From positions 1 through 64,000 of the forward strand of contig JAUIDB010000024.1 of the NCBI GenBank assembly GCA_030429235.1: a stretch of 64,000 bases of DNA, given 5' to 3'. Below the pieces are notes generated by a model. The model had not been told where the DNA came from. It saw only the letters and a program-made list of their open reading frames with translations, and searched no databases. Below, in pieces: positions 49,966 to 64,000 of the stretch. Positions within the stretch are counted from its first letter, which is position 1, and every line of letters starts with the position of its first letter. Made by a program: the position numbers and the translations under genes. The DNA is from Thermoanaerobaculia bacterium (lineage in GTDB: Bacteria > Acidobacteriota > Thermoanaerobaculia > Multivoradales > JAIOJS01).

Positions 49966-50391
49966 ATGGAAGAGAAAACCCAGATCGGAGCCCCACCCGA
50001 TCGCGTCTTCGGGCTCCTCATCGAGCCCCGCAGCTGGAGTCAGTGGTGGCGCGACGCACGGTTTGCCCGCAGCGCGGACTTCAAACCCCTCCGCGAAGGT
50101 TCCCGCTTCGAGATGACCCTGGAGTTCGGAAGGCTCCGCAGTACCCTCAAGCCCACGGTGACGCTCTGCGCCGACGGCAAGGCCTTGGCCTGGAAGGCCG
50201 ATTGGTTGGCCCTGCCGGTTCGTCAGGAGTACTACCTGCAGGCGAACGAGCGAGGGTGCCAGGTGCGAGCTCGCACCCTCTTCCCCGGCGCCCTCCAGAA
50301 GCCACTGGCCTGGCTGCGAATCGACCGGATCTGGCAACAGATGATCCAGCGCCAGTTGCGCTCCCTGCGCCAAACGGCCGAACGCCTCTGA
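49966..50391 (+). CDS. SRPBCC/polyketide-cyclase-like ligand-binding protein
   Basis: 141 residues, START/Bet v1 helix-grip fold: MEEKTQIGAPPDRVFGLLIE (strand and helix 1), SWSQWWRDARFARS, then strands EGSRFEMTLEFG and KALAWKADWLALPVRQEYYL, and the long C-terminal helix RIDRIWQQMIQRQLRSLRQ. Such proteins bind hydrophobic ligands or act as cyclases; no ligand is indicated. AGGAG lies two bases before ATG 49966. It follows the previous gene by 39 bases. Confidence 0.82.
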   Translation: MEEKTQIGAPPDRVFGLLIEPRSWSQWWRDARFARSADFKPLREGSRFEMTLEFGRLRSTLKPTVTLCADGKALAWKADWLALPVRQEYYLQANERGCQVRARTLFPGALQKPLAWLRIDRIWQQMIQRQLRSLRQTAERL

Positions 50392-50432
50392 CTCTCGGTC
50401 CGATCCCAGAGCTGCGAACGATCACCGACCGA

Positions 50433-50441
50433 TGCTATGAT
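50433..50441 (+). promoter_or_regulatory. Extended -10 element just before the macrodomain gene
   Basis: TGC-TATGAT ends nine bases before ATG 50451, with no Shine-Dalgarno. An extended -10 with no -35 is typical of leaderless or near-leaderless starts. Confidence 0.45.
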
Positions 50442-50450
50442 ACGTCGGCT

Positions 50451-51014
50451 ATGGCGACGGACACGCAGCAAACAGCAGGGCGCAGCCTTTCGATCACCCT
50501 GCGGGAAACTCAGCTCGATATCATCGAGGGAGAGCTTCTCGATCAGGAGGTCGAGGTCCTTGTCAACGCAGCCAACGAGGAGCTGCAACTGGACCAGGGA
50601 GTCGGGGCCGACCTGTTGGCCGCCGGTGGCCCCTCGATCCAGGAGGAGTGCGACCGAGTCGGCGGAGTCGCCACGGGTACCGCCGTCATGACCGGGGCCG
50701 GTGAGCTCGAAGTCAAGCACGTCATCCACGCCGTAGGCCCCCACTTCGGAGAGTCCGAAGCCGATCGCAAGTTGTCGTCCGCCGTGCGGTCGAGCCTGGC
50801 CCTGGCCGAGCGACACGGCATGGTGTCGATCGCCCTGCCGCCGATCTCGACCGGTGATCGCGGCTACCCGATGGACCGGACCGCTCGCATCACCCTGACC
50901 GAGATCCAGCGCTACATCCAGGGCGGCACCAAGCTCGAGCGCGTGGTCGTCGTGCTACCGGGCGATGGCGTGTTCGACATCTTCAAGCGCGAACTGCGCC
51001 GCGGCTTCCGCTAG
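50451..51014 (+). CDS. Macrodomain protein
   Basis: 187 residues. A single macrodomain (about 18-185): DIIEGELLDQEVEVLVNAANEEL (NAAN motif), GVGADLLAAGGPSIQEECD, AVMTGAGELEVKHVIHAVGP and the phosphate loop ALPPISTGDRGYPM. It should bind ADP-ribose derivatives; de-ADP-ribosylase or O-acetyl-ADP-ribose deacetylase activity is likely (YmdB/MacroD type). The TIVNAAN-like Asn is present. ATG 50451 is preceded by an extended -10. Convergent with the next gene (25 bases). Confidence 0.93.
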   Translation: MATDTQQTAGRSLSITLRETQLDIIEGELLDQEVEVLVNAANEELQLDQGVGADLLAAGGPSIQEECDRVGGVATGTAVMTGAGELEVKHVIHAVGPHFGESEADRKLSSAVRSSLALAERHGMVSIALPPISTGDRGYPMDRTARITLTEIQRYIQGGTKLERVVVVLPGDGVFDIFKRELRRGFR

Positions 51015-51039: not shown

Positions 51040-51741
51040 TCAGGCGCAGGGCCGGAAGGCGCGGTAGAACTCGATCAACACCGCCTCGTCGGCCGGCGTC
51101 CCTGTCAGTTCGAGCGGCAGCTCGCCATCCGTGGCCACCTCGTCCATCGGGTCGGGCCCGAACCAGATCCCGAGCCGGACCCGCGGGTCCTCACACTCGA
51201 TGTAGGTCAAGACCTGAAGCCCCTCGAAGGTCTGCTCGCCGGTGTCGACCTCGCCCCGGTAGGCGGCGTAGAGATGCCGTCGACCTTCGATCTCGAAGCT
51301 GCCTCGTCGTAGCGACTGCGACGAGTCGAAGTCGATCGAAGTGTCGTCCAGCATGTCGAAGTCGTCGGTCTTGCCCTCGAGGTAGTCGATCAGATTCTGC
51401 CGTTTGGCTCCGAACATCCGACCGTCGAGGTAGATGAATCCCGACTCGTCGATGCCCTGCGGCTCGGGTCCCTCGCCGGGACGGTCCGACAGCATCGCCA
51501 TCTCGAAGGCGAAGGGGATGGAGATGCTGATCATCGGGTAGTAGCCCTCCGGAAGCTGCTCCGCCCCCAACACCTCCTTGACCTTCTCGCTGCGGGCTAC
51601 CGGGTCCGACATCTCCTCCGCGAACTCCTGCCCCTTCTTGGCCAGGAAGAGACCTCCACCGACCAGCACCGCGATCGCCAGGACCACGGCGATGCCGCAA
51701 CCGATGACCATGTAGAGACAGGGAGATGACTTCTTGGACAT
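51040..51741 (-). CDS. Membrane-anchored protein of unknown function
   Basis: 233 residues. Residues 11-33 form one membrane helix with Cys/Gly content (YMVIGCGIAVVLAIAVLVGG). The C-terminal domain is acidic and soluble (LPEGYYPMISISIPFAFEMAML, GFIYLDGRMFGAKRQNLIDYL, LIEFYRAFRPCA). No family recognised. GAGG lies upstream of ATG 51741 and TAGACT (a possible -10) about 25 bases before the start. It follows argS by 39 bases and may be co-transcribed. Confidence 0.75.
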   Translation of the reverse strand: MSKKSSPCLYMVIGCGIAVVLAIAVLVGGGLFLAKKGQEFAEEMSDPVARSEKVKEVLGAEQLPEGYYPMISISIPFAFEMAMLSDRPGEGPEPQGIDESGFIYLDGRMFGAKRQNLIDYLEGKTDDFDMLDDTSIDFDSSQSLRRGSFEIEGRRHLYAAYRGEVDTGEQTFEGLQVLTYIECEDPRVRLGIWFGPDPMDEVATDGELPLELTGTPADEAVLIEFYRAFRPCA

Positions 51742-51780: not shown

Positions 51781-53718
51781 CTACATCCGGTCGGGAGTCG
51801 GGATGCCGAGCACCGCTGCCAAGTCCGTGAGAGCGTCACAGAAGGCCTGGGTTGCCGCCAGTCGCACCGCGCGCAGCGCTTCGTCCGACTCGTGCAGGAT
51901 CGGATGCCGGTGGTAGAGGGCGTTGAACTTCTGCGCCAGATCGAGAGCATGGCGAGCGATCAGCGACAGCTCGAGAGTCCGCCCCGCCTTGTCGACGCTA
52001 TCGCGCACCTGCGCGGCGCAGAGCACCAGGTCCCAGAGATCGTCGCTCCAGACCTCCTCCGAGAGTGCCGCCACGGTGTCCGGCTCCAATCGACTGGCCA
52101 GCCCCGCCTCGTCGAGCTTGCGGCGGATGTTGGCCGCCCGCACCAGGGCGTACTGCAGATAGGGTCCCGACTCTCCCTCGAACGACAGCGCCTCGGCGAA
52201 GTCGAAAGCGATCACGCGATTGGTCGATGCCTTGACCATGAAGAAGCGCAAGGCAGCGACTGCGATCTGGTGCGCCAGCGCGGTGAGTTCCTCGCTACCG
52301 AGTTCCCGATTCCGATCCTCGATCTCCTGCCGCGCCTTCGCCTCCAACTGGTCGATCAGATCGTCGGCCTTGACCCCGACCCCCTTGCGGCCCGACATCT
52401 CGAGCGACTTGCCCTCGTCGGCGTCCTCGTCGGCCTCGTCGAGGTAGCCCAACTGCCGCGCCGTATCGGCCGATAGCGCCACCATCTCGTACGCGAAGTG
52501 GATCGATCGCTCCGCTTCGGCGTGGTGGTCGAGCGCCTCGAGTCCGGCCCGCACGATCTTCTGCAGATAGCTCTGCCGGATGTCGATGACGTTGATCACG
52601 TCGTCGGCCGCGCCGAACGCGGGATGTTCGTCGACTCCGGGGCGGTGGGTGGTCCACAGCCCCTGCTCTTCCCAGAAACGGTACTCGAAGTCCCGCCCGA
52701 GGAGACCGAACTTCCAGAGCTGGTACGCGATGTCCTTGCCCACATAGGTGACGGTACCGTCCGAGCGAACGATCACCTTGTCGGGATCCTCGAGACCAGC
52801 GAACTCCTCGGATTCCGAAAGCGGCATCACCCAGCAGCCCTCGTTCTTGCCCGCCTCTTCGAGGTGGATCGCCCCCGTCGCCACCAGCTTGTCGAAGGCG
52901 TTTCGGAAGAAGTCGAGGCCGAGAATGTCACTCTCATGGGTCAACAGGTCGTAGCCGATCCCCAGCCGGGCCATCGTCTTCAGGTGCCGGGTGACGATGC
53001 GGCGGGCGACGATGCGACCGATTTCGGCGCGCTCGCCCTCGCCGGACTCGAGCTCATGCAGGGTCTTCCGTCGGAGTCCGCGGCGCTCTTCGTCCTCTTC
53101 GTACCAGCGCCCGACCTCGCTGTAGAGGTCCCAACAGTAGTAGTCGAAGGGCTCGGGAAGTGCTTCGACCGCGGCCGCGTCGAGACCTCGAATGTCGACG
53201 AATCCGACGACCACATCGGCCACCTGGACGCCGGTGTCGTCGATGTAGTTCTGGACCTCGACCCGACGACCGAGGGTGCGGAGCGTGGCCGCGAGTACGT
53301 CGCCGAGCACCGAGTTCCGCAGGTGACCGATATGCGCTGCCTTGTTCGGGTTGATGTTGGTGTGCTCGATGACGGTCTTGGTGCCTTCGACTTCGTCGGT
53401 CGCGTCGCGGAGTGCCGGGCGCGCGAGCAGAGCCGCGGCCCCAGAGCTACGCTGAAGGAAGGCGTTGAGGTACCCGGCGCCAGCGATCTCGAGGCTGCGA
53501 ACTCCCGCCGGCAGGTCGATACCCTCGAGGATCTCGGCCGCGATCTGCCGCGGGTTGCGCTTGACGACCCTGGCCAGATGCAGAGGAGCGGGAAAGGCGA
53601 TATCTCCCAGGTCCCGGCGTGGCGGTATCTCGACCACGGGGTCGTGGTCGACCTCGTACAACGTACGGATCCTGGATTCGAGACGGCGGCTGAGTTCGTG
53701 CTTGGCTGCGCTCCACAT
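51781..53718 (-). CDS. argS: Arginyl-tRNA synthetase
   Basis: 645 residues. Class I synthetase with the N-terminal Add-1 domain (about 1-100), HIGH motif in NPNKAAHIGHLRNSVLGD, the Arg-specific YIDDTGVQVADV, the KMSKS-equivalent SLEMSGRKGVGVKADDLID, and the C-terminal DALR domain ending PTPDRM. ATG 53718 is supported by TACAAT eight bases upstream (leaderless type); ATG 53739 would add seven residues but would lie upstream of that element. Two of the arginine tRNAs it charges are encoded in this window. Confidence 0.96.
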   Translation of the reverse strand: MWSAAKHELSRRLESRIRTLYEVDHDPVVEIPPRRDLGDIAFPAPLHLARVVKRNPRQIAAEILEGIDLPAGVRSLEIAGAGYLNAFLQRSSGAAALLARPALRDATDEVEGTKTVIEHTNINPNKAAHIGHLRNSVLGDVLAATLRTLGRRVEVQNYIDDTGVQVADVVVGFVDIRGLDAAAVEALPEPFDYYCWDLYSEVGRWYEEDEERRGLRRKTLHELESGEGERAEIGRIVARRIVTRHLKTMARLGIGYDLLTHESDILGLDFFRNAFDKLVATGAIHLEEAGKNEGCWVMPLSESEEFAGLEDPDKVIVRSDGTVTYVGKDIAYQLWKFGLLGRDFEYRFWEEQGLWTTHRPGVDEHPAFGAADDVINVIDIRQSYLQKIVRAGLEALDHHAEAERSIHFAYEMVALSADTARQLGYLDEADEDADEGKSLEMSGRKGVGVKADDLIDQLEAKARQEIEDRNRELGSEELTALAHQIAVAALRFFMVKASTNRVIAFDFAEALSFEGESGPYLQYALVRAANIRRKLDEAGLASRLEPDTVAALSEEVWSDDLWDLVLCAAQVRDSVDKAGRTLELSLIARHALDLAQKFNALYHRHPILHESDEALRAVRLAATQAFCDALTDLAAVLGIPTPDRM

Positions 53719-53726
53719 AGCGCGCG

Positions 53727-53732
53727 ATTGTA
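53727..53732 (-). promoter_or_regulatory. Leaderless-type -10 element (TACAAT) before argS
   Basis: On the minus strand TACAAT matches the -10 consensus at five of six positions and ends eight bases before ATG 53718. No Shine-Dalgarno separates them. The -35 region is weak. Confidence 0.45.
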
Positions 53733-53885
53733 GCCTCATTCCACCGCCGCGAAGGATTCCGCGCCCCGCTGCATCCAACGAAGCAAACCATGGCACGAAC
53801 GGGTGTCCGGCTTGGATCCGAGCGACACAGGGTCGTTCGAAGAGCTGGGCCACTCCGATGCCAGCACTGCCAAGGAGGCTTCGAG

Positions 53886-55138: not shown

Positions 55139-55945
55139 TCACTTGGTGCGGTAGTCGAGTTCGGCCCGCCGGACCTTCCAAACGGCCAGGCTCACGCCGA
55201 GCGCGGCGTACACCAACAGCTGCACGACCACCAGCCAGGTCGGCAGTGGCTCAGCGAGCATGGCGAAGGGACCCTCCGAGAGGGGCACCGGGCTCAGCGA
55301 GCGCAAGTAGTAGACCACCGACAGCTGCTTCAGCCCTGGCGGCAGCATGAACTGCGCCCACTCGATGAGGAAGAACACCGCCACCACGTAACCCGGCCCC
55401 CGCAGCAACGTGCCGACGGCAAGGAAGAAACCGCCGTAGGCCAGGCAGCCCAGCGCTGCGATTCCCAGGTAGGTGAGGACCTCCATCTGGAGTCTGGGGT
55501 CACCGAACGCGGCCAGACCGTGTGGCAGTTGAAACAAGGCCCGACCGATGACACCGGGCAGGAGGAAGAAGCACCAGGCGAGAAAGACGCCAGCGAGGTA
55601 CTTGCCGACCACTAGCTGCCACCTCGGGATCGGCGTCAGCAGGGAGTAGTGCCACGAGCGTTGGTCCAACTCCCCGCGGATCTGCCCGATGAAGATCGTG
55701 GCACAGCCGAAGAAGAGCACGATCCGAACCACCATGCCCTGGAAGAAGTGAGCGTAGTTCTCCTGCAGCTCCGCGGTCGTCAGACCCTCGGGATGCCCGA
55801 ACTTCGAGACCGCCCAGGCCACCACGGCCATCATCGTGACGGGAGCCGCAGCCAACAGGAAGTACCAGAGGAGTCGACCGGGCGAAGCCTGACGACGCAA
55901 TTCCAACTTCGCGACTCCGAACAGCCGTCGGCGTGACGAGCTCAT
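55139..55945 (-). CDS. ABC-2 type transporter permease (second pair)
   Basis: 268 residues with six hydrophobic segments: [20 protein letters not shown], a periplasmic loop, [95 protein letters not shown]. The [30 protein letters not shown] segment is the coupling-helix region of ABC-2 exporters. ATG 55945 overlaps the ATPase stop by four bases. Last gene of the operon. Substrate unknown. Confidence 0.88.
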
Positions 55946-56886
55946 AGCGACCCCCCTTCCGTACCCACGAGGTAGCGATACACCGCCATGACGTCGTCGT
56001 CCGCCGGAGCCACCGACTCGAGGTCGATCGCCCCCTCGGCGACCAGCTCATTGAGCAGCAAATAGAAGTGCTCCGCCTGCTTCGTCTTGACCATCAGTCC
56101 GCCGCCGTCCTCGTGGAGTTTCACCTCGACTACGTGGTCGTGCGAGAAGAGCGTCGAGGCCACCAGCGCTGGATCGGCGCACCGCAGCATCACCTGCATC
56201 GGGTGGTCGACCATCTCCTCCCGCACCTCGGGGATATCCCCCTTGGCCACGATGTACCCCTGATTGATCAACACCACCTGGTCGGCAATGACGTCGACTT
56301 CGTGCAGGATATGACTGGACACGATGACGTGCCTCCCTTCGGCCGCCAACTCGCGGAAGAGGTCGATCAGTTCGGCGCGAGCCATCGGGTCGAGCCCGTT
56401 CAACGGTTCGTCGAGTACCAGGATCTGTGGGTCGTGGGCCATCGCTTGCGCCAGCTTGATCCGTTGCCGCATCCCCTTGGAGTACGCAGCCACTCGGCGG
56501 CCGGCCGCCTCGGTCAGCTGGACCCGGTCGATGGCCCGCAGCGCACGGCTCCGCGCCTCGACCGGCCCCATGCCGTGGAGCGTGAGATACCCGACCAGGA
56601 ACTGGAGGCCAGTGACCCGCCGAGGAAAGGTGTCGAACTGGGCGCAGTAGCCAATGCGGTCGAACAGTGCTGGCGATCGACTCGGCTCCTCGCCCAATAC
56701 GCGCACCGAACCCTGGGTCGGCTCGAGCAGTCCGGTCATCAGGTTCATCACCGTGCTCTTGCCGGAGCCGTTCGGCCCCACCAGGGCGGTGATGCCCGGG
56801 CCGATCCGAAGGTCGACCCGGTTGACTCCCAGAACTTCGCCGTAGAACTTCGAGACGTCCTCGAAGAGGATCACACGCTCGCTCAT
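55942..56886 (-). CDS. ABC exporter ATPase (second pair)
   Basis: 314 residues. Walker [11 protein letters not shown]-loop GYCAQFDTF, signature [12 protein letters not shown], Walker [13 protein letters not shown], switch SSHILHEVD. About 90 C-terminal residues after the ATPase domain form a small regulatory domain common in this exporter group. ATG 56886 overlaps the upstream permease stop in ATGA. It pairs with the permease just downstream. Confidence 0.92.
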
Positions 56887-57743
56887 TCCACCACCTCGTA
56901 GGCCCGCACCCGGCGCCTGAGGACCACCACGGCCACCGCGCCCAGGGTACCGAGAGCGAGAGCTGCTGCCAGCGGACCGACCTCCTTGGAGGGCGTGATC
57001 CCCATCAGCGCTCGCACCACCGAATCGATGAGCGTGAACACGTTGAACAGAACCCCCTTCTCGGTGTCGAGAGTCTCGTTCATGACCTGGCCGAAGAGGG
57101 CTCCTAGGATGAAGATCCCGACGAAGCTCGCCTCGGCGGCCGCCTTGGCTCGCAGAGCGGCCGAGATCGCCAGCGCCACCAGTCCGTAGAGCAGTAGTAC
57201 CACCCAGGAGCCAGCGAAGATCCCCAGCCCCAGCCTGAGGTTGGCCATCACCCAGGAGAACCCCTCGAGGATCCCCTGCAGACCGAAGAGCAGGCCCATC
57301 GGTACCCAGGTCACCGCCGAACCCAGCACCAGCAGAACCGTCAGCTTGCCGAGCAGATACTCGGCCTGCGACAGGGGACGACCCAGGTACAGCGGTAGCG
57401 CGTTGTCCCTGAGGTCGACCGAGATCAGCTTGGTCCCGGCCCCGAGAAAGAGGAAGAAGGCCGCGGCGAACTGAGCCTTCAAGATGAAGAGGAAGAAGCG
57501 GCCGTCGATCGGCACCAGTTCTTCGATCGGCAGCCGGAGGATCGCCAACGCCTCGGCGTTGTGGTGGATGTAGATCATGACCGCCGCGATCAGCGGAGCC
57601 ACGATCGACAGCACCAGGGTCACCAGCGTACGGCGGCTCTTGATCACATCCTGCAGGGCGTACTTGGCCAAGACCATGAAGCGCCACTGCGCTGCCGTCA
57701 ACGCCCCGCGGTAGACCCGGTAGCCCTGGTCATAGACTGCCAT
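56883..57743 (-). CDS. ABC-2 type transporter permease (first pair)
   Basis: 286 residues with six to seven hydrophobic segments: [94 protein letters not shown] and [20 protein letters not shown]. The N-terminus [13 protein letters not shown] is cytoplasmic, and the [18 protein letters not shown] segment looks like the coupling helix. The 5' end overlaps the upstream ATPase gene by 14 bases. Confidence 0.88.
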
Positions 57744-58734
57744 GATCCACCTCCATCGCCTGCAAGAAGATGTCTTCGAGAGAGTCCCGCTTGTAGATCA
57801 AGCGCCGCACTTGAGTCTCCTGGTCCCGCGCGATGCGATAGAGATCGGAGACCGAAACGGCCTCGGGCAGGACGACCTTGAGACGGCGCTTGCCGTGCAC
57901 TGCAACTTCACAGCCCAGGCCGGCGATCGCCTCGGCAAAGGAGCTGCGACCGCCGCGTACCTCGATCTCGAGGAAGCTGCGGTTCGAGCGCCTCTCAGCT
58001 TCCAGGTCTCGGTAGGCGACCACGCGGCCTGCCTTCAGCACCACCACCTCGTCGCACACCGCTTCGACGTCGCGAAGGAGATGTGAAGAGATCAGGATCC
58101 GTGCTTCGCCCCGGTCGCGGATCGAGGTGATGAGATCGAGCATCCGCTGACGCCCCGAGGGGTCGAGGCCGTTGGTCGGTTCGTCGAGGATGATCAAGCG
58201 AGGGCCATGGACCAGGGCCTGGGCCAGCTTCGCCATCTGTTTCATGCCCAAAGAGTAGGTGCCGATCTTTCGGTAGCGCGCCTCGCCGAGACCGACGTAG
58301 AAGAGCATCTCGTGGGCGCGCTCGAGCGCCACCTGCGGCGGCAACCCCGACAGTTCGCCCATCAGCCGTACGAAGTGGACGCCGGTCATCTCCGAAACGA
58401 ACGCATCGCGCTCCGGCATGTAGCCAACCTGGGCCTTGAGCTCACGTCCCTGCCGCGCCACGTCCCAGCCGAGCACCGTGGCGCGTCCAGCCGACGGCCG
58501 ATGAAAACCGAGGAGCGTGTGGACCAATGAGGTCTTGCCGGCACCGTTCGGACCGAGCAGACCGATCGCCCGCCCCGAGAGCGCCACCGACACCTGGTCC
58601 AGGGCCTGTACCTTCCCGAATCGCAGGCTGAGCCCGTCGAGCTCGATGACCGGCGCGCTACTCCCCGGTTCGGAAGCGGCCGACGGCTCCGCTCCCGCTG
58701 TCGCCCCTTCTGAGCGACTCTCCAGACTCTCCAT
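57730..58734 (-). CDS. ABC exporter ATPase (first pair)
   Basis: 334 residues. A Ser/Ala/Glu-rich N-terminal tail (about 1-28), then Walker [10 protein letters not shown], the Q-loop GYMPERDAF, signature [12 protein letters not shown], Walker [13 protein letters not shown] and switch SSHLLRDVE, plus a C-terminal domain (about 245-334). ATG 58734 has GGGAGG six bases upstream, better than the GTG at 58737. First gene of the four-gene ABC operon. Confidence 0.92.
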
Positions 58735-58832
58735 CACGGACCTCCCTCTGTTCTCGCACTCTGCATGCTACAGCCTACGAGACAGAGGCGGGGAGTGTTC
58801 CCCGCCTCTGCCATCGCCCGAAGCTCTGACCG

Positions 58833-61370
58833 TCAGAGGGTCTCGAGCAGGTCGCGGACGGCCAACAGTTGCAGCAGGCCCAATGGGTTTCGCGTCGACG
58901 TCGAACCGACCGTAATCTCGTCGTCGGCTCCGGTGGCGTAGACCAGCATGGGACCCATCGTCTCCCCGATCGATACCAGCTCGTCCCGGATCTCGGGCGG
59001 CATCTGCTCACCGAGGGGGCCTCCCGACAGCAGCGCTCCGAGAGGCTCGAGCATGCCCGACAGATCCTGGTACAGGAGGGCCGAGTAGTTCATCTGCCCG
59101 TCGGCCGGCAGCAGGGCGCTGATCCGATCCGAGGTGGCGAGATTGAAGGCCGAGTCGTGGAAGCGCGAAGCCTGGCCCAGCAGGGCCGCCGACGGCGTCG
59201 CCACCAGATAGCCATCGAAGAAGTCGTAGTGGATCTGACGCAGCGAACCGAGCTCGGCGTGACCGGTCAGCACCCAACCTCCGTTCGGAGCCTCGGCCAG
59301 TTCCATCGGCTCCTGCCCTTCGGCGATCAGCCGGTCGTTGGCATCGGCGACGAAACTCTCGATTCCGTGCTGCAGACGATTCGCGTCGTAGACCTCGATC
59401 ACCAGCTTCCAGGAGGGAACCGGAGCGAGGGGACCGTCGAGCGCCAGGGCGACTTCACCACCCAGAGCCGCCAGGAAGTCCTCCCGCGGATTCCAGCCAT
59501 GTTCCTGGTCGAACTCGGCGAGATCCGACTCGACCTCCTCGACCTCTTCCGGCGACAGCGAAGCCAACACGTCCTCGAACAGCCGGCTCGGGTCCTCGAC
59601 CAGGCTCACGGCTACCGCCGTGGTGTCCGGCGACAGGAAGGTCAGACTCATCATCGGACCCGGAGTGGCGAGCCAGGAAGCGACGCCCCGGCGGGCCTCG
59701 GAGAAGGCCAGGTTGGCCTGACGCTCGACGCGATCGGCCACCGACCGCTGCTCGATGATCAGGTCCTCGAGACCGTCGAAACCCATGGCCGCGAAGTCGT
59801 CGTCGCTGGCGATCGCCCGCTCCACCCACGGTCGCAGGTCGACGGCGAGGATCGAACCGACCCCCAGCTCGTAACGACTCTGCAGTCGGCCGTGGAACGG
59901 GTTGTCGGCAAAGCTCGGAGCCGCGCCGGTCGCGGCGGCGATCACCTCGCGCAGGGCCGTGGCTCCCGGAGCGGCGATCACTCCCCGCTCCGAGACCCAG
60001 ATCAGGAGCCCGTGGTCGGGGAGGTCCGCAGCGTAGGGATCGGACACCAGGATCAGGTTCTCGTGATCCTCGAGGGCATCGAGTTCGGCGGCGAGATCGG
60101 CGCGCAGGGAATCGGACTGCCCCGACTCGGCGAGCAGAGCGGGACCGACGAAGTCGTCCCCCCTCCACCAACCCGCGATCACCAGTTCCTCACCCAAACG
60201 CTCCCCGAGGGGCGCGACCCGGCCGATCGCCTCTCGCAAGTGGTCGAGTTCCTCGCTATGGCCGATCCATCCGCTCAGCACGACGCTGGTCTGCATCCGC
60301 GACTCGAGCAGTTCGACCGTCTCTCGGATCGAGGACGAGAAGTTGGAAAGGCCGAGGTAGACCGCCGTCTCGGGCGGCAGCAACTCGAGGATGTTCGAGG
60401 AGTAGCGGAGGTTCGGCTGTGGCCGGTTCCGCAGCTCGAGGTTGAGATCGGTCAGCTCGCGCAGCAGGGCCAGATGGTCCGCGGCGTTGACCGACCAGGC
60501 GATCTCATCGGCCAGGGACACGGTACCCAGACTGGCCCGCGTCGCCACCTGGTCACCGGGATTCAGCGTGTGCTCGCGGCCTCCCTCGTTGACCTCGACC
60601 TCCCCTTCGAACACTGCGACCCGCGAACCGCGGGTCCCGTGGTTGACCGAGAACACCGTGCCCTTGACCGCCACCAGGCAGTCGTCGGTGGCCACGTAGA
60701 GACGGCCCTGCTTCTGCTTGGCCGCTTCGACCACGATGTTGCCGGCGGCGAGATCGATGGTGGTGCCGCGCCGCCCCTCGCGCACGGCGAGGCGGGAGCG
60801 CTCTCGCAACTCCACCAACGAACCATCGGCGAGTTGCAGCACGGCGTTCTCACCCCGTGGTGTGATCACTTCACGGTCGTAGCCGATCTCGCTTCCGATC
60901 TCGACCGGTGCCACCATCTCCCCGGTCGGGGCGAGCAGCGACCCCGACACCAGCTCGAACGTAGCGTCCGAGGGTCCGGCGAAGAACCCTCCGAAGTAGA
61001 GGGCCGGCGCCAGAGCCAGGGCGGCGATCAATCCCGCCGCCAGTGCCCAGCGGCGCGGTGCCGTCGGAGCGTCGGTCTCGATCGCCACCTCGGTGGGCCG
61101 ACGCAGCGCGCGACGGCAGGGGATGCAGGATCGAGCGTGATCCTCGACCAACAGGGACCGTTCGGGACTCAGCTCGCCCGCACGGTATGCCGGGAGCAGT
61201 TCCTGCAGGGCATCGCAGTCGAACACCCGGGACGATTCACTCTCGATCGCGGTCCAGGCGCGCTCGAGCGCAGCCTCCGCGGTCTTCTCTTCCATCTCTG
61301 CTGCCTCGTCGTGCAGTTGGCTCACCGCTGCCTCGAGCAGCAGCTCGTCGCGATCTCGTTCCTGGTTCAT
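58833..61370 (-). CDS. Giant membrane anti-sigma/FecR sensor with DUF3352-like periplasmic region
   Basis: 845 residues. The cytosolic N-terminus carries a zf-HC2 type anti-sigma zinc motif (H78-x3-C82-x2-C85, with Cys52 upstream), then one membrane helix (about 108-130). A FecR-like beta domain follows (about 140-290: GENAVLQLADGSLVELRERSRL, KGTVFSVNHGTRGSRVAVFEGEVEV). The rest, about 550 residues, is a large periplasmic region with the segments NPREDFLAALGGEVALALDG and LVIEVYDANRLQHGIESFV that recall DUF3352. It should hold the ECF factor encoded upstream and sense an envelope signal. ATG 61370 shares one base with the sigma stop (TGATG). The domain assignment of the last part is tentative. 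Confidence 0.85.
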   Translation of the reverse strand: MNQERDRDELLLEAAVSQLHDEAAEMEEKTAEAALERAWTAIESESSRVFDCDALQELLPAYRAGELSPERSLLVEDHARSCIPCRRALRRPTEVAIETDAPTAPRRWALAAGLIAALALAPALYFGGFFAGPSDATFELVSGSLLAPTGEMVAPVEIGSEIGYDREVITPRGENAVLQLADGSLVELRERSRLAVREGRRGTTIDLAAGNIVVEAAKQKQGRLYVATDDCLVAVKGTVFSVNHGTRGSRVAVFEGEVEVNEGGREHTLNPGDQVATRASLGTVSLADEIAWSVNAADHLALLRELTDLNLELRNRPQPNLRYSSNILELLPPETAVYLGLSNFSSSIRETVELLESRMQTSVVLSGWIGHSEELDHLREAIGRVAPLGERLGEELVIAGWWRGDDFVGPALLAESGQSDSLRADLAAELDALEDHENLILVSDPYAADLPDHGLLIWVSERGVIAAPGATALREVIAAATGAAPSFADNPFHGRLQSRYELGVGSILAVDLRPWVERAIASDDDFAAMGFDGLEDLIIEQRSVADRVERQANLAFSEARRGVASWLATPGPMMSLTFLSPDTTAVAVSLVEDPSRLFEDVLASLSPEEVEEVESDLAEFDQEHGWNPREDFLAALGGEVALALDGPLAPVPSWKLVIEVYDANRLQHGIESFVADANDRLIAEGQEPMELAEAPNGGWVLTGHAELGSLRQIHYDFFDGYLVATPSAALLGQASRFHDSAFNLATSDRISALLPADGQMNYSALLYQDLSGMLEPLGALLSGGPLGEQMPPEIRDELVSIGETMGPMLVYATGADDEITVGSTSTRNPLGLLQLLAVRDLLETL

Positions 61371-61978
61371 CAGTTATCTCCTTCGGTCGCCGGCGCATCC
61401 GACGACGGGTTCTTCTTTCGTTGGTTCTGGGTCTGGCGCTCGATGCCATGCCGGTGCATGGTCTCGATGACACTCTTGCGGGCCCGGTGCAGGGTGACGG
61501 CGACAACTCCCGCCGAAGTGCCGAGTTCCGCCGCGATGGCTGGATTGGTGAGGCCCTCGATGTACCGAAGGACGAACACCTCCGCCATCCGGTCGCTCAG
61601 GCCAGCGATCGCCTCACGCAAGGCCGAACTCAGATCGGCGTTCTTGAGATTGAGATCGGGCCGGTCGCGGCGGTCGGCCAGGAGTTCCGATTCGGCATCG
61701 TCCAGATCGACCGGCGCCGCGGTCTTGCGTCGGCGCAGGAGATCCAGGGCAGCATTGGTCCCGGCTCGCTGTAGGTACGGTCCGGGATGCTTGCCGAGTC
61801 GGGCGACGTGGCCCTGGCGGGCGAGTCGCACGAAGACGGTCTGCAACGCGTCCTCCGCGTCCGAAGAGCTGCCGGTAATCCGCAGCGCTGCGCGGAACAC
61901 CTGTCTTCCGTAGTCCCGGTACAGCGACTCGAGCGAGTGCGCTGCGGGGGGTTGGTTGTCTGTCATGGCTAGTTGCAC
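61370..61978 (-). CDS. ECF-type RNA polymerase sigma factor
   Basis: 202 residues. Region 2 (about 15-85): LESLYRDYGRQVFRAALRITG, DAEDALQTVFVRLAR; region 4 (about 125-180): ALREAIAGLSDRMAEVFVLRYIEGLTNPAIAAELGTSAGVVAVTLHRARKSV split by a short acidic linker. A basic C-terminal tail (KKNPSSDAPATEGDN) extends it slightly. GTG 61978 has GGAGG seven bases upstream; ATG 61966 is the alternative. It is cotranscribed with the membrane anti-sigma gene and diverges from the lipoprotein gene. A GGAAC with GTC 14 bases on lies upstream, a possible but short-spaced ECF target. Confidence 0.93.
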   Translation of the reverse strand: MQLAMTDNQPPAAHSLESLYRDYGRQVFRAALRITGSSSDAEDALQTVFVRLARQGHVARLGKHPGPYLQRAGTNAALDLLRRRKTAAPVDLDDAESELLADRRDRPDLNLKNADLSSALREAIAGLSDRMAEVFVLRYIEGLTNPAIAAELGTSAGVVAVTLHRARKSVIETMHRHGIERQTQNQRKKNPSSDAPATEGDN

Positions 61979-62134
61979 CTGGGGACCTCCGTAGTCAGTT
62001 CACACTTTCACTACGGGCCGCCTCGACGATTCTTACATGTCGTTCCGCCGGCAACGGCGGGAGCCGGTTCGGCGCGGCAGCTGGTTCGCCGTAAGATCAG
62101 TTGCCCAACCACTCGCTCCTCGTCCTCCGTCGCT

Positions 62135-63277
62135 ATGCCACCACGATCCCACCCCACATTGGTCCTGAACCTGACGCTGCTCGTGGGGACCCTAGGCCTC
62201 CTGGTCGGCTGCAACTCGACGCCGAGAATCGGTGGCGAGTACCTGATGGTCGAAGGAACGGCCCTCGGCGAGATCGCGGAGGAACTCGCGACCCTGCAGG
62301 GCACCCGGATCGGCCGGGTGGCAGACGAACTGCTGGCCGAACTGCCCGACTGCTCGACCTTCTCGCGCCACTGCCCGGACGGTCGCTGTCCGGAGCAGGA
62401 GCCGCTCCGATGCGAGGTCGCCCCCGCCCTGAGCCCTCTGGCCACGGACGAAGACCCCTGGGCGATTCACTACCGGCGTCCACTTTCGGACCACCACTGG
62501 GTCGAGGTGCGTGCGGCGCGGGCTCCCGGTGGAGCCACCCGCGGCGAGGTGTCGCTACCCGTTCGAGCGCTCGGGATGCCGGGGCTGGCTCCCGCTGGCG
62601 CCGCGCCCGCACCTTCCGTATCCTCGGCCCACGGGCGCTTTCTTCACCTGATGCTCCGCCCCGAGGGTGGCCTCGACATCGCCTCGGCGCTTCCTTCCGA
62701 CGGTTGGGGCGCGCGGCTCTTCGCACTCCAGAGTGCGCTCTTCTCCGCTACCACGCTCGAAGGGTCCCTCGAGGTGGCGATGTATACACCCGGGGAGGAT
62801 CAGGCTATGCCACCCTGGATCCTCGCCGTCCCGATCCTCGACTCCGAGCGAGCCGTTGCCGCCATGGAACAGTTCCTCGCCGAGATCCGGGCAAAGTGGC
62901 CGGTCGAGGTGCATCCGATCGAGGATGCTCGCGGTGTCTGCCTCACCAACCTCAACCTGCTGCCGAACCTGTCTCCTTGTTACATCGCGACGCCGCAACA
63001 CCTCGTCCTGGGTTGGAACTTCGAGTCCCTGCTGGCCGCCGCGCAGACCCCACCGAGCCCCGATCTGCTCGCCGCGACGAGCCACCTGGAGATCGACTTC
63101 GAGGCCCTCGGCAAGGCGGACGTGGCGATCGCTCGCGCCACCCAGGCCAGCCTGGAAACCCCGTCCTATCCCTGGTCGGCGGCGCGTGTCGCCGCCGTCA
63201 CCAACGACGGCATCCTCACCTTGCGGTGGGAGACCCTGCCCCGGACGATCGACGCACCGAACGAGGCCACACCGTGA
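62135..63277 (+). CDS. Lipoprotein of unknown function, possibly related to the sensor's periplasmic region
   Basis: 380 residues. Signal peptide with lipobox LLVGC (Cys28) gives a lipid anchor. Features include a Cys-rich stretch (CSTFSRHCPDGRCPEQEPLRC, about 70-92) and a later domain of alternating strands and helices: PPWILAVPILDSERAVAAMEQFL, CYIATPQHLVLGWNFESLLAAAQ, LEIDFEALGKADVAIARA. The second part resembles in pattern the periplasmic region of the divergently encoded anti-sigma protein. ATG 62135 has no clear ribosome binding site; the frame is open from 61973. Its stop overlaps the next gene in GTGA. Confidence 0.72.
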   Translation: MPPRSHPTLVLNLTLLVGTLGLLVGCNSTPRIGGEYLMVEGTALGEIAEELATLQGTRIGRVADELLAELPDCSTFSRHCPDGRCPEQEPLRCEVAPALSPLATDEDPWAIHYRRPLSDHHWVEVRAARAPGGATRGEVSLPVRALGMPGLAPAGAAPAPSVSSAHGRFLHLMLRPEGGLDIASALPSDGWGARLFALQSALFSATTLEGSLEVAMYTPGEDQAMPPWILAVPILDSERAVAAMEQFLAEIRAKWPVEVHPIEDARGVCLTNLNLLPNLSPCYIATPQHLVLGWNFESLLAAAQTPPSPDLLAATSHLEIDFEALGKADVAIARATQASLETPSYPWSAARVAAVTNDGILTLRWETLPRTIDAPNEATP

Positions 63278-64000
63278 GGGCCAAGCTGGTCCTCGTGACC
63301 CTACTCGTCGTCCTTCTCCTGGTGGCCTACCAGGCCCAGCAACGCGTACGAGGCTTCCGTCAGGCGGAGACTGTCTGCCAGGCCGTCGAGGCCGAGGATT
63401 GGGAGCGCGTCCTCCGACAGAGCGATGGCTTCGAGGGCAAACCGACCCAGGAGCGACGGGTCGCTGGCTGCCGTTGTGTGGCCCAGATCCGGACTGGACA
63501 AGCCGGAGCCTGTGCCGAGACTCTCCACACCCTTCGCCAACGCACCGCTCACGAGGACTGGATTCCGCCTCCACACCTGACGCTGCTCCTGCTCGACTGG
63601 ATGCACCGGCAAGGTCAGCTCAGCTCCGCCGCCGAACTCTCGCGACGAGCTGCGAGTGCCTACCCCGACTCCGCTCCGTTGGGCCAGGCCGAGATCGAGC
63701 TCCGCAGTCTGGTAGAGGACGAGGACCTGGTCTTGCGCGACATCACGCGCCGCCTCGACCGGTCTTCGCCACCAGAGGTCCGAGTACACCTCGCCAACCG
63801 ACGGACCGACCGACATGAGTGGGATGAGGTGCTCGCCCTCACCGACCAATTGCCCGACGAGCCGACACTTCGAGCCACGGCGCGGCACCTTCGCGGCGAG
63901 GCCCTGGCCAAGACCAACCGCATGGAAGAGCTACAGGAGCTCTACCACATGCTGGGAGAGCCTTCGGAGGCGCCGGCCGAGGACCTGGCTCGCTACGCTG
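63274..64000 (+). CDS. Membrane-anchored helical-repeat (TPR-like) protein, cut by window end
   Basis: 242 codons visible; the gene continues past base 64000. One N-terminal membrane helix (LVLVTLLVVLLLVAYQ), then a TPR/SEL1-like run of amphipathic helix pairs (TVCQAVEAEDWERVLRQSD, AELSRRAASAYPDSAPLGQAEIELRSLVE, HEWDEVLALTDQLPDEPTLRATARHLRGEALAKTN split here by loops). A Cys pair (GCRC) lies near residue 67. GTG 63274 overlaps the lipoprotein stop by four bases, so the two are coupled. Function unknown; no stop before the edge. Confidence 0.7.
   Translation, partial: MRAKLVLVTLLVVLLLVAYQAQQRVRGFRQAETVCQAVEAEDWERVLRQSDGFEGKPTQERRVAGCRCVAQIRTGQAGACAETLHTLRQRTAHEDWIPPPHLTLLLLDWMHRQGQLSSAAELSRRAASAYPDSAPLGQAEIELRSLVEDEDLVLRDITRRLDRSSPPEVRVHLANRRTDRHEWDEVLALTDQLPDEPTLRATARHLRGEALAKTNRMEELQELYHMLGEPSEAPAEDLARYA

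Follow-up and report, generated by a model that had tools for sequence, protein, structure and literature searches.

A predicted autoregulated ECF sigma factor operon of Acidobacteriota with an oversized sensing anti-sigma factor and an ABC-2 exporter

A minus-strand operon in a 64,000-nucleotide stretch of a Thermoanaerobaculia-type Acidobacteriota genome (bases 1–64,000 of a 65,838-base contig; hereafter the window) encodes an extracytoplasmic function (ECF) sigma factor, an 845-residue anti-sigma factor, and two ATPases and two permeases of an ATP-binding cassette (ABC) exporter of the ABC-2 type. As judged from gene content, phyletic pattern and a recurring promoter motif, these six genes probably constitute a single autoregulated circuit, in which the anti-sigma factor would act as sensor and the exporter as response. 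The whole six-gene unit, and not the lipoprotein encoded beside it, is conserved over much of Acidobacteriota. We are highly confident of the operon and of the co-inheritance of its genes, and have little confidence in any statement on the substrate. The initial annotation had proposed a self-contained envelope-sensing module of sigma factor, anti-sigma factor and a divergently encoded pair, a lipoprotein and a tetratricopeptide repeat (TPR)-like protein. The notion of such a unit holds up, except that its further members are the exporter genes downstream, which went unmentioned: the minus-strand operon runs on past 58,833 to 55,139. The guess of a two-sided module thus gives way to a testable six-gene circuit, whose promoter can be defined and whose regulon is predicted to be tiny. 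The circuit recurs over much of a poorly studied phylum, and the TP0453-like tandem domains of its sensor give a structural lead to what an oversized anti-sigma factor can sense. Its class, an ECF sigma factor with an anti-sigma factor and an ABC-2 exporter, is ordinary; its form is unusual and apparently undescribed in the literature searched, where no paper on this operon was found.

Gene content and domain architecture

The promoter and the six genes, in the direction of transcription, are as follows.

62012..62038, minus strand: predicted sigma-dependent promoter, TGTAAGAA-N13-CCGTA, located by the motif model upstream of the sigma gene
61370..61978, minus strand: ECF sigma factor, 202 aa, starting at GTG 61978 or ATG 61966; Sigma70_r2 and Sigma70_r4_2 over cut-off
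58833..61370, minus strand: giant anti-sigma factor, 845 aa; zf-HC2 at 52–86, transmembrane helix at 109–127, FecR-like domain at about 137–283, DUF3352-like domains at about 320–560 and 570–845
57730..58737, minus strand: ABC ATPase 1, DrrA/GldA-like, 335 aa; ABC_tran E 8e-25
56883..57743, minus strand: ABC-2 permease A, 286 aa, its gene overlapping that of ATPase 1; ABC2_membrane_2 below cut-off, weak PmtD match
55942..56886, minus strand: ABC ATPase 2, DrrA/GldA-like, starting at ATG 56886; its gene overlaps each permease gene by 4 bp
55139..55945, minus strand: ABC-2 permease B, 268 aa; ABC2_membrane_3 over cut-off

The sigma factor and its giant partner are both real, as initially annotated. 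The former comprises regions 2 and 4 only, the composition of the ECF class (Pfam Sigma70_r2, E 4e-13, and r4_2, E 4e-14; TIGR02937, E 4e-24), and its gene overlaps that of the anti-sigma factor by one base. In the latter, a zf-HC2 domain over the Pfam cut-off is divided from the periplasmic part by a single hydrophobic helix at about residues 109–127, followed by a FecR domain (residues 168–259, E 2.5e-16) and, beyond it, about 520 further periplasmic residues. The zinc ligands C52, H78, C82 and C85 are at least 90% conserved among 80 sequences. The protein carries, as H78-C82-C85, the Hx3Cx2C motif that defines the class I zinc anti-sigma factors (ASDI; PMC7406223) and, as in that class, is encoded beside an ECF gene; its large size and periplasmic architecture set it apart. 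It presumably binds and inhibits its cognate sigma factor. The closest named relative, from a Thermoanaerobaculia metagenome-assembled genome, is 65–67% identical. Further large open reading frames with FecR domains (788, 629 and 607 aa) occur in the same genome on contigs C6, C42 and C87 (loci L003, L006 and L002); they have neither blastp similarity to the anti-sigma factor nor a similar operon around them.

A gap of 95 bases separates the anti-sigma gene from that of ATPase 1, and the four genes that follow overlap one another. DrrA-type ATPases, both with intact Walker A, signature and Walker B motifs, together with ABC-2 permeases, of which permease A alone falls below its Pfam cut-off, identify an ABC-2 system that likely works in the direction of export. 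The solved sequences nearest to ATPase 1 are ABCA phospholipid transporters. The curated Pmt equivalog models score well below their cut-offs (PmtD, 18.3 vs. 220 bits; PmtC, 106 vs. 375; PmtA, 89–100 vs. 350). The substrate may perhaps be a hydrophobic or membrane-active compound.

The periplasmic part of the anti-sigma factor

An AlphaFold model of the anti-sigma factor, built with 80 orthologues, reached a predicted local distance difference test score (pLDDT) of 83.9, with low values chiefly at the membrane helix and linker. Foldseek matched about 115 columns of this model to the PupR signaling domain and the anti-sigma factor BDI_1681 (E 1e-5 to 2e-6). A longer match, of about 260 columns, was to Treponema pallidum TP0453 (E 0.004, prob 1.00, TMt 0.45, root-mean-square deviation about 9 Å); as the output came without aligned query residues, the former matches were assigned to the FecR domain and the latter to one repeat by length fit. 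A sequence search of solved structures with the whole protein matched only the FecR-like part of PupR. The repeats themselves emerged from profile comparison: residues 320–560 match residues 570–845 (hhalign, P 2.4e-6, probability 89%), and since its two halves thus resemble each other, the region 320–845 is a tandem duplication. DUF3352 (PF11832), to which the initial annotation had likened parts of this region, has Pfam matches in 15 of 19 close relatives, the best with E 7.5e-8; in the window protein itself it is not called at E 0.01. The literature searched did not mention DUF3352.

The periplasmic part thus consists of two DUF3352-like domains in tandem, which resemble the membrane-inserting lipoprotein TP0453. 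According to the title of a paper by Luthra et al. (2011), listed among the references of PMC10353723, TP0453 senses membranes and integrates into them via two amphipathic helices. TP0453 is a free outer-membrane lipoprotein, whereas here two such units are fused to an anti-sigma factor.

Conservation and co-inheritance

The unit was followed at two depths. Within the order, anti-sigma orthologues occur in 47 of 59 genomes, a few of the matches being short and weak; over the first 58 genomes, 45 are clear. Both permeases, each single-copy, are present in 44 of these 45 and in none of the 13 anti-sigma-negative genomes (Fisher p 4e-12, relatedness ignored), and in the sole exception, genome G016, the contig ends inside the operon. 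Gene order is kept as well: as far as the contigs reach, the sequence sigma, anti-sigma, ATPase, permease, ATPase, permease holds in almost every one of 21 loci from this order. Absences of the unit fall in families f2 and f9, which also hold positive genera.

In the GTDB collection, 237 contigs matched the pattern, and the 80 listed are all from Acidobacteriota, bar generic or apparently mislabeled titles. One contig titled “Deltaproteobacteria bacterium” (L097) has the six-gene operon and coincides with an order-level relative (G004); its title looks mislabeled. Gene order was counted over 80 further GTDB loci that take in Terriglobia, Blastocatellia, Bryobacterales, Thermoanaerobaculia and Polarisedimenticola. 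The sigma gene directly precedes the anti-sigma gene in 60 of 69 loci, and, among the 49 loci across the phylum whose downstream sequence extends for 6.5 kb or more, 44 have at least two ATPase genes after the anti-sigma gene.

The anti-sigma factor and both permeases are missing together from whole genera whose sister genera keep them (g2, g10, g20, g22, g24, g25 and g26 in f2; g18 in f9), a natural set for phenotype comparison.

The predicted promoter

Unbiased word counts in the regions upstream of the sigma gene brought out TGTTAATAA with CGTT and, more broadly, TGTTAATAA or TGTAATAA about 13 bases before nCGTT or nCGTC; the classical GGAAC-type ECF motif did not stand out there. The conserved pattern can be written TGT(T)AAKAA-N13-nCGTn. 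When a weight matrix was refined on 75 loci, most of these, which are its own training set, gave scores above 14. In an independent test, a model trained on other classes was applied to 19 loci of the window's order with the same threshold of 14: 10 of the 19 exceeded it, as against 3 of 1900 shuffles and none of 19 reverse complements. The site upstream of the sigma gene ranked first among all positions, over both strands of loci of 8–19.5 kb, in 17 of the 19. The site is present in one more locus, L060, the 18th, which was passed over only because the start of its sigma open reading frame is truncated.

Genome-wide scans with the strict pattern point to a small regulon. The window's genome contains one further copy, which lies antisense inside a surE-like open reading frame, and because this only other match lies in a coding region, the circuit looks local and autoregulated. 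Across 58 genomes, matches away from the operon were not above a reversed-pattern control. A promoter of its own type with few matches elsewhere would make this an autoregulated local ECF operon, by prediction, and the simplest reading, for which we see good grounds, is a regulon that consists of the operon itself.

The proposed circuit and its alternatives

In the circuit that we consider likely, the cytoplasmic zf-HC2 domain would hold the sigma factor, while the FecR-like domain and the two TP0453/DUF3352-like domains would detect a compound in the envelope that is hydrophobic or membrane-active. Detection would free the sigma factor, probably by regulated intramembrane proteolysis via a site-2 protease, as for Escherichia coli FecR (PMC8144685); the window's genome has a strong match to peptidase M50, the site-2 protease family, which proves nothing alone. 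The freed sigma factor would then transcribe the operon from its own promoter, yielding more sigma factor, more anti-sigma factor, which closes the loop, and more of the two-ATPase, two-permease exporter, which would remove or relocate the compound.

Several observations weigh against this picture, in part or as a whole. The PmtD match of permease A is far below the curated cut-off (18 vs. 220 bits). The E-value of the TP0453 match is at the edge of significance and its deviation, at about 9 Å, is high, so the match points only faintly to a hydrophobic or membrane signal. Genome G014 and loci L093, L100 and L133 carry no exporter directly downstream, and the operon has no strict promoter in genomes G007 and G015 and in nearly all those of genus g3 (family f3), all of which encode the anti-sigma factor. 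Phylum-wide, 157 of 197 sampled genomes gave no match; the 40 with the anti-sigma factor are a lower bound, at least 40, since scoring was limited to four candidates in each genome.

The alternative that survives best, a tentative one that we rate below the reading above, is that the exporter is a housekeeping lipid or envelope-component transporter, ABCA-like, and that the periplasmic domains of the anti-sigma factor, as an accessory or by binding substrate, report how heavily the transporter is loaded instead of sensing a toxic compound. The circuit would be unchanged, and only its signal and substrate would be others. A lipid must be taken seriously as a substrate because the nearest solved sequences of ATPase 1 are the ABCA phospholipid transporters, and both the membrane-associated, TP0453-like fold and the distribution of the unit, single-copy and conserved over many families, unlike patchy resistance genes, would suit such a role; yet the ABCA likeness of an ATPase says little on substrate, and the absence of the unit from whole genera of f2 and f9 means that it is not essential everywhere. 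A related possibility, doubtful at present, is that the anti-sigma factor is receptor and transporter accessory at once: its TP0453-like domains would capture a lipid or amphipathic molecule and pass it on to the exporter or signal its arrival from there, with the loading state directly controlling sigma release. If true, one protein would couple transport flux to transcription.

It is improbable that the system signals in the FecI/FecR manner through a distant, unlinked TonB receptor. As in FecI/FecR and PupI/PupR, an ECF sigma factor is paired with a single-pass anti-sigma factor whose periplasmic FecR-like domain is recognized by Pfam and has the fold of the PupR signaling domain. Here the likeness ends, however: zf-HC2 replaces the FecR-type N-terminal domain, so that the FecR equivalog model matches the periplasmic part only (35 vs. 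385 bits); more than 500 extra periplasmic residues follow; and the transporter is an exporter, not an importer. The predicted regulon, moreover, is the exporter operon with the sigma gene itself, whereas expression of E. coli fecIR is independent of FecI (PMC8144685). The initial annotation had stated that no TonB receptor is linked, and this is confirmed, with none among the conserved neighbors or the scanned neighbors in the window, unlinked receptors not having been searched.

Comparison with known systems

The sigY-yxlCDEFG operon of Bacillus subtilis, too, is an ECF operon under its own control; its last genes encode an ABC-2 ATPase/permease pair, and its regulon is very small. The likeness is one of analogy: where the SigY operon has small negative regulators, a single ATPase and a single permease, the operon described here has the 845-aa FecR/DUF3352 anti-sigma factor, two ATPases and two permeases. 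PMC11466899 lists YxlF/YxlG as an ABC system whose function is unknown.

The staphylococcal PmtABCD system offers a second parallel, with an operon in which the gene of its regulator precedes those of a four-part ABC exporter, again two ATPases and two permeases, and with the weak PmtD likeness of permease A. PmtABCD exports amphipathic peptides, and PmtR belongs to the transcript that it controls (PMC5080381). Unlike the anti-sigma factor, PmtR is a cytosolic GntR repressor, and the sequences here fall far short of the Pmt equivalog cut-offs.

The divergent lipoprotein and other neighbors

The genes encoded divergently from the operon are judged not to be part of the module.

62135..63277, plus strand: lipoprotein, 380 aa, lipobox ...LLVGC26
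63274..64000, plus strand: start of a TPR/type I phosphodiesterase protein that continues to contig position 65526

The lipoprotein is real, as annotated, and cysteine-rich, with six conserved cysteines besides the lipobox. The TPR-like protein is present as well, although the window stops within its gene: the full reading frame on the contig (63274–65526) encodes 750 aa and ends in a domain of the type I phosphodiesterase/alkaline-phosphatase superfamily (PF01663, E 8e-7). The late domain said to be shared by lipoprotein and sensor finds only a weak echo in a match between the lipoprotein and the second DUF3352-like half (hhalign, P 0.002), at a probability of 14%; with four homologues only, the lipoprotein model (pLDDT 47.5) was too poor for structural comparison to decide.

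The pair sits next to the ECF locus in both species of the window's genus and nowhere else, being absent from all 60 loci outside the genus with at least 3 kb upstream; a lack of conserved neighbors is one of the two outcomes that the initial annotation had named as refuting its module. That sensor, lipoprotein and TPR protein form one module, in which the lipoprotein would be a ligand, a decoy or part of the regulon, is the least probable reading of all, for against the divergent layout 156 bp apart, kept in both species, and the weak profile similarity stand these 0 of 60 loci, unlinked homologues elsewhere and a divergent region with no copy of the sigma promoter on the lipoprotein side, so that linkage, promoter and phyletic pattern alike led us to reject the lipoprotein as a member. 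Its distant homologues in genomes G036 and G071, from two other genera and unlinked to the ECF locus, again lie beside a TPR-phosphodiesterase protein, and since they keep this partner away from the ECF locus, the two form a module of their own. In G036, a topoisomerase VI subunit A/Spo11-like gene lies beside the lipoprotein homologue (L147:7726–8958).

On the other side, a macro-domain protein (50001–51014, plus strand) and an arginyl-tRNA synthetase (ArgRS; 51781–53853, minus strand) are encoded near the operon, and ArgRS and a small uncharacterized protein (51040–51741) are also found near the operon in several other genera (L052, L054 and L055).

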